From Pseudomonas mohnii (lineage in GTDB: Bacteria; Pseudomonadota; Gammaproteobacteria; Pseudomonadales; Pseudomonadaceae): DNA of 64,000 nt. Positions 20,402 through 25,764 of this stretch are shown here, piece by piece. How positions within the stretch are numbered: position 1 is the stretch's first letter; each line of letters opens with the position of its first letter. The stretch spans positions 3,643,501 to 3,707,500 of the forward strand of contig NZ_FNRV01000001.1 of NCBI RefSeq assembly GCF_900105115.1, in the 5' to 3' direction. Both the position numbers and the translations under genes were made by a program. The notes below the pieces were generated by a model. It made no database searches, was not told the origin of the DNA, and worked only from the letters and a program-made list of their open reading frames with translations.

Positions 20402-22243
20402 TTACAGCCCGTCGAGCATTGCCTTGTTACGTACTGCGCCCTTGTCGGCACTGGTCGCCAGCAGGGCATAGGCCTTCAGGGCGGTGGTCACTTTACGTGG
20501 ACGCACTTCCACCGGCTTCCAGCCTTTCTTGTCCTGCTCGACCCGGCGCGCGGCCAGTTCTTCGTCGCTGACCAACAGGTTGATCGAGCGGTTCGGAATG
20601 TCGATCAGCACTTTGTCGCCGTCCTGCACCAGGCCGATGGCGCCACCGGCAGCCGCTTCAGGCGAAGCGTGGCCGATGGACAGGCCCGAGGTGCCACCGG
20701 AGAAACGGCCGTCGGTGAGCAGGGCGCAGGCTTTGCCCAGGCCTTTGGATTTCAGGTAGGACGTCGGGTACAGCATTTCCTGCATGCCCGGGCCGCCTTT
20801 CGGGCCTTCGTAGCGAATGATGACGATGTCGCCTTCCTTCACTTCGTCGGCGAGGATGCCGCGTACGGCGCTGTCCTGGCTTTCGAAGATCTTCGCATTG
20901 CCTTCGAAGACGTGGATCGACTCGTCGACGCCCGCGGTTTTCACCACGCAGCCATCAAGCGCGATGTTGCCGTACAGCACGGCCAGGCCGCCCTCTTTCG
21001 AGTAGGCGTGCTCGACACTGCGGATGCAGCCGTTTTCACGGTCGTCGTCCAGGGTTTCCCAGCGGGTCGACTGGCTGAACGCGGTCTGGGTCGGGATGCC
21101 TGCCGGGCCGGCCTTGAAGAAGTGGTGCACGGCTTCGTCGGTGGTCTGGGTGATGTCCCACTTGGCGATGGCTTCTTCCATGCTGCGGCTGTGCACGGTC
21201 GGCAGGTCGGTGTGCAGCAGGCCGCCACGAGCCAGCGAGCCGAGGATGCTGAAGATCCCGCCGGCACGGTGCACGTCTTCCATGTGGTACTTCTGGATGT
21301 TCGGTGCGACCTTGCACAGTTGCGGCACGTGACGGGACAGACGGTCGATGTCGCGCAGGTCGAAATCGATCTCGGCTTCCTGGGCAGCGGCCAGCAAGTG
21401 CAGGATGGTGTTGGTGGAACCGCCCATGGCGATGTCCAGGGTCATGGCGTTTTCGAACGCCTTGAAGTTGGCGATGTTGCGCGGCAATACCGACTCGTCG
21501 TTCTCGCCGTAGTAACGCTTGCACAGCTCGACGATGGTGCGGCCGGCCTGCAGGAACAACTGTTCGCGGTCACTGTGGGTGGCCAGGGTCGAACCGTTGC
21601 CCGGCAGTGCCAGGCCCAGTGCTTCGACCAGGCAGTTCATCGAGTTGGCGGTGAACATGCCGGAGCACGAACCGCAGGTCGGGCAGGCGCTGCGCTCGTA
21701 CTCGGCGACTTTCTCGTCAGAAGCGCTGGAGTCGGCGGCGATCACCATGGCGTCGACCAGGTCGAGGCCGTGGGAGGCGAGTTTGGTCTTGCCGGCTTCC
21801 ATCGGGCCGCCGGAAACGAAGATCACCGGGATGTTCAGGCGCAGGGACGCCATCAGCATGCCAGGGGTGATCTTGTCGCAGTTGGAGATGCAGACAATCG
21901 CGTCGGCGCAGTGGGCGTTGACCATGTACTCGACGGAGTCGGCGATGATCTCGCGGCTCGGCAGCGAATACAGCATGCCGTCGTGGCCCATGGCGATACC
22001 GTCATCGACGGCGATGGTGTTGAATTCTTTCGCCACACCGCCAGCGCGTTCGATTTCGCGGGCGACCAGTTGGCCCAGGTCCTTGAGGTGCACGTGGCCC
22101 GGTACGAACTGGGTGAAGGAGTTGGCGATGGCGATGATCGGCTTTTTGAAGTCGTCATCTTTCATCCCTGTTGCGCGCCACAGTGCGCGGGCGCCGGCCA
22201 TGTTGCGGCCGTGGGTGGATGTTTTCGAGCGATAATCAGGCAT
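20402..22243 (-). CDS. ilvD: Dihydroxy-acid dehydratase
   Basis: IlvD dehydrates 2,3-dihydroxy-isovalerate and -methylvalerate in valine, isoleucine and leucine synthesis, using an Fe-S cluster. The 613-residue length fits the 4Fe-4S form. Cluster ligands are seen in [11 protein letters not shown] and in [19 protein letters not shown]; the RFSGGTSG segment lies near the C-terminus. It starts [30 protein letters not shown], as in the E. coli enzyme. It has its own terminator downstream and 258 bp of non-coding leader upstream, in which I could not identify a promoter or attenuator with confidence. Confidence 0.97.
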
Positions 22244-22502: not shown

Positions 22503-23705
22503 TCATACACCGTCCAGCGCCCTTTGATTCTCGTGGTCGATCAACGCATTCAGACCCAGACCTGCAAGACTCAATGTCAGAAAACCAATGGCCAGTGTCG
22601 TGGTCAGGTCCCCGGACACGAGATTGATCACCACGCTGGTGACGCCGCCGCCCATGAAGATCAGCACGGCACCGACCGAAGTCGAGGTTCCGGCGTATTG
22701 CGGGTGGATACTCATCGCCTTGTTATTGACGACTGGCCTGGTGATGGTGGTCCCGATCGTGCAGATCAGCATGGATACCAGCACGGCAGCGGCAGACAGG
22801 CCGAAGTGGCGAATCAGCCACAGCATCAGCACACCCGAAACCGCGATCAGCCCCAAGCCAACAACGATCTGCGTATGCCCTCGCAGGCGTTCTTGCAAGG
22901 CGTTGGCGACTGCGCCGCCGCTCGCGTACGCAACGCCGTACAGCATTAGCGTCCAGGCGTATTCATAGGGTGAGAGGGCCAGGTGTTCCATGAAAATAAT
23001 GGGTGACGTCACGATGAACGAAAAATGGCAGGCGAAGGCCAGGGCCGAAATCAGCCAGTAAGCCATGAAGCGTGCATTCGAACAGACATGCCAATAGGCA
23101 CTGAAAAATCCCCCTCGCGATGCGGTGCGCATGGCTGAAGACTCCTTGAGCAGCCAGCAGGCGCTTGACCCGACTGAAACGGCCAGTGCGACAAATACAT
23201 AAAAGCTGCCTTGCCAGCCAAGCTGCAATTGCAACCAGGTCCCCAGCAACGGCGAAATCGAAATGAATACGCCACTGGCGGTCACCATCCAGATCCTCAG
23301 TCGCTGCCTTTCCTGGCCTTCGAACAAATCCTGCACCAGCGCCTGTGACAGCGAGAAGGCCCCGCAGCCGATTGCCTGGACCACACGAAAACCCAGGAAC
23401 CAACAGTATTCGCTGGAAACTGCGCATCCCACCGCACCAATGGCCGCGATGGCGATACCGCCCAACAACAGCTTCTTGCGGCCCCACATGTCGGACAGGG
23501 GACCAACCAGCATTACGGAGAACGCCAGACTGACGGCGAACAGGCTGACAGACAGGGCAGCTTCGGAAGGCGAAATCCGGAAGCAGGCCGACAGGTCTGG
23601 AAAGGAGGGGAGAACCACGTCTAACGGGAATACGCCCAGCAGGGTCATGCTCATCAGCAGCAGGACGATTAACGGCTTTTCGTTGGCGTCATTGGCGTGC
23701 GGCAT
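22503..23705 (-). CDS. MFS efflux transporter, Bcr/CflA-like
   Basis: A 400-residue protein with about 12 membrane helices. It shows the MFS motif A region GPLSDMWGRKKLL between helices 2 and 3 and an RVVQAIGCGAFSLSQALVQD segment of the drug:H+ antiporter-1 type. The Bcr/CflA group exports drugs such as bicyclomycin and sulfonamides, or small peptides and siderophores. No biosynthetic genes lie nearby to indicate a substrate. The base composition looks less GC-rich than the neighbours, and with the adjacent RAYT it makes an accessory pocket between ilvD and rlmI. Only the transporter class is certain. Confidence 0.78.
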   Translation of the reverse strand: MPHANDANEKPLIVLLLMSMTLLGVFPLDVVLPSFPDLSACFRISPSEAALSVSLFAVSLAFSVMLVGPLSDMWGRKKLLLGGIAIAAIGAVGCAVSSEYCWFLGFRVVQAIGCGAFSLSQALVQDLFEGQERQRLRIWMVTASGVFISISPLLGTWLQLQLGWQGSFYVFVALAVSVGSSACWLLKESSAMRTASRGGFFSAYWHVCSNARFMAYWLISALAFACHFSFIVTSPIIFMEHLALSPYEYAWTLMLYGVAYASGGAVANALQERLRGHTQIVVGLGLIAVSGVLMLWLIRHFGLSAAAVLVSMLICTIGTTITRPVVNNKAMSIHPQYAGTSTSVGAVLIFMGGGVTSVVINLVSGDLTTTLAIGFLTLSLAGLGLNALIDHENQRALDGV

Positions 23706-23799: not shown

Positions 23800-23906
23800 T
23801 GTAGGAGCGAGCCTGCTCGCGATGAACGTCAACGATAACGCGGTGTGTCTGGCTATCCGCGGTGTCTTTGCGTTTTTCGCGAGCAGGCTCGCTCCTACAG
23901 GGGGGG
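23800..23906. repeat. REP doublet (REPIN) at the 3' side of the RAYT gene
   Basis: The 100 bases 23801-23900 match 24461-24560 at 97 positions, in the same orientation, 660 bp apart, with the RAYT gene between them. Stems GCGAGCCTGCTCGC and GCGAGCAGGCTCGC; spacer GAACGTCAACGATAACGCGG followed by a GTGTGTCTGG stretch. It ends about 3 bp from the RAYT stop codon. Confidence 0.95.
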
Positions 23907-23908
23907 TA

Positions 23909-24367
23909 TTAGAGCCAGATGGCGTCCCAGAGTGGATAGTTACCGACATGGTCGACTAGCCCTGCACGAAGCGGGTTGGCGATGATGTATCGAGCCATGG
24001 CTTTCAGATCTTCCTCTCGACGCAGGGCTCGGTCGAAGTAGCCCTTTTGCCATACAGGAGCATATAGATCTCGTTTCTGATTGATGAGGCGTGTGCAGCG
24101 AGATTTGGTGGCCTGCACCAGTTTCGGCAAGTCACCGTTGTGCAATTCAATCAACCAGTGGAAGTGATCAGGCATGACTACCCAGGCTATAGATGTGGCA
24201 TGGCCGGCTTCCTGAGCCCTTCTGAACTCGTGCACCAACAATCGGCCCGTGCGCCAATCCTGGAAGAAAGGTTGTCGTTCATGGGTGACAGCGGTCAGGT
24301 GATAGAGGCGACCGGATTGCGAGTGTCGACCTGTGCGTAATCGATGGGCTTTTGGCGTGTTGGACAT
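23909..24367 (-). CDS. REP-associated tyrosine transposase (RAYT, Y1 HUH family)
   Basis: A 152-residue IS200-like single-domain nuclease. The HUH metal motif is His68-Phe-His70 in VVMPDHFHWLIE; the segments WQKGYFDRALRREEDL and ARYIIANPLRAGLV are typical of RAYTs. The likely nucleophile is Tyr127 in ARYIIANP (Tyr110 is the alternative). RAYTs cut single-stranded REP DNA and are thought to spread or maintain REP doublets; they are single-copy, chromosomal and not known to move themselves. Here the gene lies between two nearly identical REPINs. The ATG at 24367 is chosen because it starts the conserved region. The gene appears intact. Confidence 0.93.
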   Translation of the reverse strand: MSNTPKAHRLRTGRHSQSGRLYHLTAVTHERQPFFQDWRTGRLLVHEFRRAQEAGHATSIAWVVMPDHFHWLIELHNGDLPKLVQATKSRCTRLINQKRDLYAPVWQKGYFDRALRREEDLKAMARYIIANPLRAGLVDHVGNYPLWDAIWL

Positions 24368-24459
24368 TCCGTTGTCCTCTTCAATGGTGGGAAGAGAAAA
24401 CGGTAGGCGTGGGGCGGGTGGTTGTCGTATCGACAGTGGATCAGGATATGTCCTGCACC

Positions 24460-24565
24460 TGTAGGAGCGAGCCTGCTCGCGATGAACGTCAACGATAACG
24501 CGGTGTGTCTGGTTGTCCGCGGTGTCTTTGCGTTTTTCGCGAGCAGGCTCGCTCCTGCAGGGGGG
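24460..24565. repeat. REP doublet (REPIN) at the 5' side of the RAYT gene
   Basis: Near-identical direct copy of the element at 23800 (three differences in 100 bases: two in the spacer and TACAG to TGCAG at the outer flank). Sequences outside the two elements are unrelated, so the duplicated unit ends at the REPIN borders. It abuts the stop codon of the rlmI-like gene at 24568. Confidence 0.95.
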
Positions 24566-24567
24566 TG

Positions 24568-25764
24568 TTAGCTGTTTGGCAGCAGGCGGCAGGTGATGCT
24601 CTTGATGTAACGGGTTTCGGCAATGGCCGGGTGTACCGGGTGATCCGGGCCCTGGCCGCCGCGCTCGAGCATCTGGATGTTGCGATCCAGGTGACGGGCG
24701 CTGGTCAGCAGGATGTTCTGCAGGTCATCTTCAGGCAAATGCATCGAGCACGAAGCGCTGACTAGGATGCCGTCCTTGCTGAGCAGGCGCATGGCTTGCT
24801 CGTTCAGGCGACGGTAGGCGCCTTCGCCGTTCTTCATGTCCTTCTTGCGTTTGATGAACGCCGGCGGGTCGGCCACGATCACGTCGAAACGTTCTTCGCT
24901 GGCTTTCAGCTCTTTCAGGGCTTCGAAGACGTCGCCTTCGATACAGGTCATTTTGTCGGCGAAACCGTTCAGCGCGGCGTTGCGCTCGACGCCGTCGAGG
25001 GCGAAGGCCGACGCATCGACGCAGAACACTTCACTGGCGCCGAAGGCAGCAGCCTGTACGCCCCAGCCGCCGATGTAGCTGTAGAGGTCCAGTACGCGCT
25101 TGCCCTTGGCGTACGGCGCCAGGCGTGCGCGGTTCATGCGGTGGTCGTAGAACCAGCCGGTTTTCTGGCCCTGGATGACGGGCGCTTCGAATTTCACGCC
25201 GTTCTCTTCCAGTGCAACCCACTCCGGCACCAGGCCGAAGACGGTTTCTACATAGCGATTGAGGCCTTCGGCATCACGGGCAGCGGAGTCGTTCTTGAAC
25301 AGAATGCCGCTTGGCTTGAGCACTTGGGTCAGCGCTGCGATCACGTCATCTTTATGGGCTTCCATGGTCGCCGAGGCGATCTGCACGACCAGGATGTCGC
25401 CGAAACGATCGACCACCAGACCTGGCAGCAGGTCGGAGTCGCCGTAGACCAGGCGATAGAAAGGTTTGTCGAACAGGCGATCGCGCAGCGACAGGGCGAC
25501 GTTCAGGCGATGCACCAGCAGCGACTTGTCCAGCGGCAGCTTGATGTCGCGCGACAGCAGGCGGGCGCAGATCAGGTTGTTCGGGCTCATGGCCACGATA
25601 CCCAGGGGCTTGCCACCTGCGGCTTCGAGGATCGCCTGGTCGCCGGCCTTGAAACCGTGCAAAGGGGTCGCCGCTACATCGATTTCGTTGCTATAGACCC
25701 ACAAATGACCGTTGCGCAGACGACGGTCGGCGTTGGCTTTGAGGCGCAGGCTAGGCAGGGACAT
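24568..25764 (-). CDS. rlmI: 23S rRNA m5C methyltransferase, RlmI-like (PUA domain + SAM methyltransferase)
   Basis: A 398-residue protein: an N-terminal PUA domain (LRLKANADRRLRNGHLWVYSNEID and following, to about residue 75), then a SAM-dependent methyltransferase domain with RVLDLYSYIGGWGVQAAAFGASEV as motif I and VIVADPPAF as motif IV; a Cys lies in LVSASCSMHL. RlmI methylates C1962 of 23S rRNA in E. coli. Family members differ in target, so the exact position is inferred. It is monocistronic on the minus strand and diverges from the HDOD gene. Confidence 0.85.
   Translation of the reverse strand: MSLPSLRLKANADRRLRNGHLWVYSNEIDVAATPLHGFKAGDQAILEAAGGKPLGIVAMSPNNLICARLLSRDIKLPLDKSLLVHRLNVALSLRDRLFDKPFYRLVYGDSDLLPGLVVDRFGDILVVQIASATMEAHKDDVIAALTQVLKPSGILFKNDSAARDAEGLNRYVETVFGLVPEWVALEENGVKFEAPVIQGQKTGWFYDHRMNRARLAPYAKGKRVLDLYSYIGGWGVQAAAFGASEVFCVDASAFALDGVERNAALNGFADKMTCIEGDVFEALKELKASEERFDVIVADPPAFIKRKKDMKNGEGAYRRLNEQAMRLLSKDGILVSASCSMHLPEDDLQNILLTSARHLDRNIQMLERGGQGPDHPVHPAIAETRYIKSITCRLLPNS

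Follow-up and report, generated by a model that had tools for sequence, protein, structure and literature searches.

REP-associated tyrosine transposases (RAYTs) are regarded as domesticated genes that are inherited vertically, and the locus described here touches on the route by which such a gene is lost, is moved, or comes to be bordered by another class of REP. The window, which is the whole 64,000-nt stretch of Pseudomonas mohnii DNA that was analysed, contains a RAYT gene between two REPINs. A first-pass annotation had reported that these REPINs are nearly identical and co-oriented, and had proposed that they make the RAYT part of a composite unit that could excise or be lost by recombination, leaving one REPIN behind. 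The observation was confirmed, and the interpretation as a whole was partly supported: it is likely that the RAYT is resident between ilvD and rlmI, and that REPINs of its own class are the points at which it is lost, inverted or exchanged.

Structure of the RAYT locus

The features of the locus are listed in Table 1. The sequences at 23801-23900 and 24461-24560 are identical at 97 of 100 positions and lie 660 bp apart in direct orientation, and the DNA outside them is unrelated: across the adjoining 100 bp, 27 positions agree on the left and 30 on the right, which is the chance level. Each repeat has the layout of a REPIN, with a 22-bp REP, a 54-bp spacer of uniform length and a 22-bp inverted REP. 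On both sides of the RAYT the REPs begin with GTAG and include a palindrome, and the same class is abundant in the genome, where the REP pattern had 387 exact matches (197 + 190) and the reversed control had none. A genome that lacks the RAYT (G052) had 279 matches and one that bears it (G245) had 235, so the number of REPs does not simply track the presence of the RAYT. The window's genome also contains REPIN arrays with a spacing of about 117 bp, in which copies are up to 100% identical.

The RAYT reading frame is intact. Its product contains the Y1/IS200-like domain (Pfam Y1_Tnp, PF01797, E = 2.3e-12) and matches the solved TnpArep of PDB entry 4er8 (E = 1.3e-06). The HFH motif at residues 68-70 and the tyrosine at residue 127 aligned over the H-M-H and Y of 4er8, and by this alignment the protein retains the HUH-type histidine pair and the catalytic tyrosine. 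Between the end of the left REPIN (23898) and the stop codon (23909-23911) there are 10 bp, rather than the approximately 3 bp given originally. The ilvD-rlmI setting that had been named for the locus fits the flanking genes, but it left out an MFS transporter gene that separates ilvD from the left REPIN. The two gene names are those of the first-pass annotation and are consistent with the Pfam domains.

Table 1. Features of the RAYT locus in the window and positions of REPIN arrays in the window's genome
Feature	Position	Strand	Basis
ilvD (dihydroxy-acid dehydratase), left edge of the home site	20402-22243	minus	ORF + Pfam
MFS transporter gene, left outer neighbour	22503-23705	minus	ORF + Pfam
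Left REPIN (REP, 54-bp spacer, inverted REP), RAYT stop side	23801-23898
Stop-side inner flank	23899-23908
RAYT (REP-associated tyrosine transposase, Y1_Tnp) gene, 152 aa, intact	23909-24367	minus	ORF, Pfam, 4er8 match
Start-side inner flank, 93 bp	24368-24460
Right REPIN, co-oriented with the left, RAYT start side	24461-24558
rlmI-like SAM-dependent methyltransferase gene, right outer neighbour	24568-25764	minus	Pfam Methyltrans_SAM + PUA_3
REPIN arrays	G000:C1 161402-162786, 411485-412277, 5458186-5458982, 5749180-5749980, 5762480-5763014, 6019504-6020531

The arrangement in related genomes

A scan of named genomes was analysed for its best 80 of 525 loci, of which 49 (L039-L087) have a protein identity of at least 70%. 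Within these best 80 of 525, the ilvD-rlmI interval holds 48 of the 49 orthologous loci, mostly with REPINs on both sides, and the one locus found elsewhere (L052) is an additional P. lini copy. An ortholog (at least 70% identity) is present in 26 of the 298 genomes of the genus that were searched. When the window was added to the 49 named loci from the best 80 of 525, a REPIN was called on both sides in 34 of 50; P. moorei was left out of the 34, as its left REPIN, with altered arms, went uncalled. The 34 pairs, from the same best 80 of 525, comprise 27 that are co-oriented and 7 that are inverted, and their left-right identity has a median of 0.89 and a range of 0.66-0.98, reaching at least 0.95 in three loci, with the window (0.97) at the high end. 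Since most of the orthologous loci have REPINs on both sides, the arrangement in the window is ordinary for this RAYT family, and two whole co-oriented REPINs are not the unusual feature they had been taken for.

At 33 of the 34 loci (scan of the best 80 of 525), a REPIN elsewhere is as close to the left or the right copy as the two are to each other, or closer, so left and right REPINs generally evolve as separate lineages. Concerted evolution of the two copies was rejected as a rule, the locus's own pair being strictly the best match in one of 34 cases, which is the window itself.

Likeness and age of the REPIN pair

The two window REPINs are mutual closest copies (0.969, with the next best at 0.879) in a pool of 73 REPINs taken from the same genome; this pool was picked by similarity to the window REPIN and is hence biased, and the fetched stretch L258 was omitted from it. 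A whole-genome search gave 89% for the best other place. For fourteen of the 73, a copy in a different region matches at 0.965 or more, so pairs this similar also occur without a RAYT between them.

The same pair is found in P. moorei (L039), where the left spacer is one base off that of the window and the right REPIN differs at three positions; between the two genomes ilvD+rlmI is 97% identical and the RAYT DNA 93%. The pair is thus older than the split between the window lineage and P. moorei, which contradicts its description as fresh and rules out a recent duplication private to the window strain. The two copies would have become near-identical in the window lineage before this split and would have been retained since. 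The left REPIN of P. moorei (ilvD+1557) has a complementary 15-bp extension in both arms and an unchanged spacer. This extension is part of a longer REP variant, CTCCGGGCGGCGTTCCGACGA, of which the window's genome has 29 copies and that of P. moorei 24; the two arms of a single REPIN have changed REP class together.

Vacant sites with a single REPIN

The ilvD-rlmI interval was fetched from 140 genomes, of which 10 have the ortholog, 4 have a distant RAYT and 126 have no RAYT. At three of the 126 RAYT-less sites (L120, L181 and L323), exactly one REPIN of the same class stands where the RAYT would be, and the outer flanks on either side of it are in register. The arrangement in L120 (G130) is MFS-95-REPIN-13-rlmI, compared with MFS-95-REPIN-RAYT-REPIN-12-rlmI in the window (distances in bp). 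That of L181 (G052) is ilvD-194-REPIN-41-MFS, compared with 194-195 and 40-42 in L025, L032, L057 or L031, and that of L323 (G276) is ilvD-275-REPIN-11-MFS, compared with 275 and 12 in L022. Outer-flank distances at occupied and lone-REPIN sites are therefore equal to within 0-2 bp. A genome search found no ortholog elsewhere in these three genomes, the best RAYT match being 54-60%. The left outer flank of L323 is that of the left REPIN, and its spacer is nearer to the right REPIN of L022 (42/54) than to the left (33/55), as expected if a crossover took place in the first arm. A fourth, non-strict case (L343) is like L181 but has an altered REPIN arm. The remaining RAYT-less sites contain no same-class REPIN, a single REP, or REPINs of other classes; because most of them lack a same-class REPIN, loss by other routes, or sites at which a RAYT was never present, must be commoner.

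A second site is located between two convergent TonB-receptor genes, where three genomes (G208, G090 and G017) have an ortholog and their home sites have no RAYT. REPINs are found on both sides of this RAYT in G208 and G017, and the outer distances are 10 bp on the left and 17 bp on the right in G208 and G090. The second-site RAYT of G017 has the opposite orientation. A relative (G320) has a lone REPIN here (L293), in the arrangement TonB-10-REPIN-17-TonA, with the same 10 and 17 bp. Its first arm carries a private base of the left copy, and its spacer matches the right copies at 52/54 (G090) and 51/54 (G208) positions, compared with 28/54 and 29/56 for the left copies. It looks like a hybrid of the left and right copies of its relatives, the left-arm evidence being one base relative to G208 and a second relative to G090, and such a scar fits an insertion as well as a deletion. 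The receptor-gene tree places G320 inside the group that holds the three occupied genomes but does not order it relative to G208 and G090+G358. On this tree loss is therefore no more parsimonious than separate gains, and gain in two lineages would require as little as one gain followed by losses.

The comparison of genomes supports the proposal that the unit can be lost with one REPIN remaining, on the basis of L120, L181 and L323 at the home site and L293 at the second site. The first-pass annotation had suggested a search of relatives for a vacant site with one REPIN, and the three strict cases at ilvD-rlmI are what this search returned.

Would independent insertion of the repeats account for the same observations? 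The REPINs would then have been inserted separately next to a RAYT that does not move and is inherited vertically, any likeness between them would come from repeated conversion by the REPIN population or insertion from it, and the vacant sites would be plain deletions that by chance spared a REPIN. REPINs insert often, and the 387 exact REP matches in the genome, the 33 of 34 loci with an equally close or closer REPIN elsewhere and the seven inverted pairs among the 34 (both from the best 80 of 525) are what such a history would predict. It does not readily predict outer distances that match within 0-2 bp between occupied and lone-REPIN sites, the left/right hybrids at L323 and L293, the co-orientation of 27 of the 34 pairs (best 80 of 525), or a window pair at 0.969 to each other and 0.879 to the next in the pool. 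We regard independent insertion as rather unlikely.

Inversion and allele replacement

Relative to ilvD and rlmI, the RAYT is co-oriented in 34 and inverted in 15 of the 49 loci with a neighbour (scan of the best 80 of 525). The median distance from the start codon to the REP is 93 bp in co-oriented loci (32 loci) and 92.5 bp in inverted loci (12 loci), and that from the last sense codon to the REP is 16 bp in both orientations (32 and 12 loci). A pairwise comparison of L049 and L066 found colinear outer flanks, a reversed interior, and breakpoints in the REPINs. Inverted forms were observed in assemblies, both between species and between strains.

Trees of 42 rows were built with FastTree and as quick trees. 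Seven orientation changes are needed on the ilvD+rlmI tree, where starred branches force at least five, and five are needed on the RAYT tree, where at least four are forced. Three sister pairs, picked after the core tree was viewed, were compared with the RAYT data, which reject L049+L066 (p 0.011) and L048+L058 (p 0.039) and do not reject L060+L071 (p 0.457); at least some of the apparent inversions are therefore allele replacements. A simple history of a single inversion was ruled out by the two trees together with the sister-pair tests. When the ilvD+rlmI data were set against groupings from the RAYT tree, the window with P. moorei and L082 gave p 0.088, and the ten inverted rows as one clade gave p 0.136, so that neither grouping was rejected.

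Among the best 80 of 525 loci are 31 further RAYT loci (57-64% identical), which fall into five shared sites (14, 3, 4, 5 and 3 loci) plus two that are unplaced. Within this same set of 80, four of the five sites (14, 3, 4 and 3 loci) have one orientation each, and the paralogous site with five loci is divided three to two. Between P. morbosilactucae (L091) and P. chlororaphis 14D6 (L113), one outer flank (799 bp) is 99.2% identical and the other (863 bp) 99.7%, and the REP-bounded RAYT segment of 675 bp is inverted and 95.6% identical. The simplest reading of this pair would be an exchange bounded by REPs. The lower identity of the inverted segment compared with its flanks (about 99%) indicates that allele replacement also occurs, although faster evolution of the RAYT alone could be a partial cause of the difference.

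Possible mechanisms

The preferred reading is that of a RAYT gene resident at the ilvD-rlmI site of Pseudomonas, with REPINs of its own class on either side; these REPINs would be where the gene is cut out of the chromosome, turned round in it, or swapped into it. Recombination between REPIN copies, or between REP arms, would remove the RAYT and leave one REPIN in place. The REP arms are also inverted repeats of each other, and the inverted form may have arisen when REPs in opposite orientation paired, or when a different RAYT allele came in at a REPIN. The agent would be the usual recombination of the host, or slippage as the repeats are replicated. Nicks introduced at REPs by the RAYT may or may not take part, and could raise the rate of rearrangement.

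A stronger form of this reading treats the REPIN-bounded RAYT as an exchangeable cassette: the gene would be excised with one REPIN remaining, would re-enter at other REPINs in either orientation, and would give way to foreign alleles, with the REPs as recombination sites and perhaps with help from the RAYT. This extension is doubtful; if it is true, a "domesticated" transposase still moves, by way of the repeat population and not by its own transposition.

It is improbable that the RAYT itself catalyses these events, cutting and joining the REPs beside its own gene and so excising or inverting it. According to the available text of PMC8266576, single-stranded REP is cut, joined and recombined in vitro by the TnpAREP of E. 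coli. The breakpoints of L049/L066 and L091/L113 lie in REPs, and the window protein has kept the HFH motif and Y127. However, no dedicated enzyme is needed for repeats this long to recombine. TnpAREP is also described in the text of PMC8266576 as acting on REP and not on inverted REP, so that inversion is not obviously explained.

An ordinary composite transposon, in which REPIN-RAYT-REPIN moves as a unit and is present in many copies, would fit the second-site orthologs of G208 and G017, which have a REPIN on either side, and the extra copy in P. lini, but is very improbable given that just 26 of 298 genomes have an ortholog (at least 70%), that one site holds 48 of 49 named loci (best 80 of 525), that no genome with a spread of near-identical copies was seen (Pseudomonas sp. 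ERMR1:02 has two, divergent and adjacent), and that in its own genome the window RAYT has one place at 100% and its 851-bp block no second full-length match.

Comparison with known systems

IS200/IS605 elements have hairpin ends, and their transposases belong to the same HUH/Y1 superfamily as the RAYT. The RAYT differs from them in a home site that is stable across species, in its low copy number, and in that the ends of its unit are whole REPINs of a genome-wide repeat population. Integron cassettes, with their folded attC sites, offer an analogy, though not membership, since they too place a gene that can be lost and reinserted between hairpin-forming repeats; the RAYT locus has no integrase and no array.

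If REPINs are sites of loss, inversion and allele exchange, the repeat population that a RAYT maintains would also decide the fate of the RAYT. The predicted REPIN junctions could then be sought in ordinary laboratory strains.

In the portions available, PMC3390384 and PMC3686654 describe flanking REPs on both sides of a RAYT as usual (the "REPtron"), and the window RAYT corresponds to this description in its Y1 domain, its REPs on both sides and its orthologs in local synteny. The same portions also agree with our data in describing several REP classes used by syntenic RAYTs, together with occasional loss, a novel locus and lateral gain, so that RAYT/REP synteny, loss and relocation are, on this text, already published. 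Inversion of the RAYT between REPs, lone-REPIN sites with matched flanks and hybrid REPIN scars go beyond what these portions contain, and literature searches among freely available papers, which for RAYT inversion gave mostly unrelated work, found no published REP-bounded RAYT inversion, lone-REPIN scar or hybrid scar. The consulted text of PMC3686654 (2013) calls the mechanism of its REP switches speculative. The repeats themselves resemble the REPINs of PMC3116915, as described in its available part, in having two inverted REPs, a short spacer (54 bp here) and a high genomic copy number. That part reports REPIN excision reads and treats the REPIN alone as mobile, whereas here the whole gene between two REPINs appears to be lost, inverted or exchanged.

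Other features of the ilvD-rlmI region

In Pseudomonas sp. ERMR1:02 (L045) the home site has the order ilvD-REPIN-RAYT(77%)-REPIN-MFS-REPIN-RAYT(82%)-REPIN-rlmI, so that the MFS gene has a divergent RAYT ortholog on each side. Many species have an MFS gene at ilvD-rlmI, to the left or the right of the RAYT and also where no RAYT is present. These MFS genes are 38-100% identical to that of the window, and a further REPIN is often present on the far side. A single clade of the distant same-site RAYTs (approximately 59%) and the home clade was not rejected (p 0.536). Distant RAYTs (58-59%) occupy ilvD-rlmI in another part of the genus (L118, L212, L214, L215 and L216), all of them inverted relative to ilvD.
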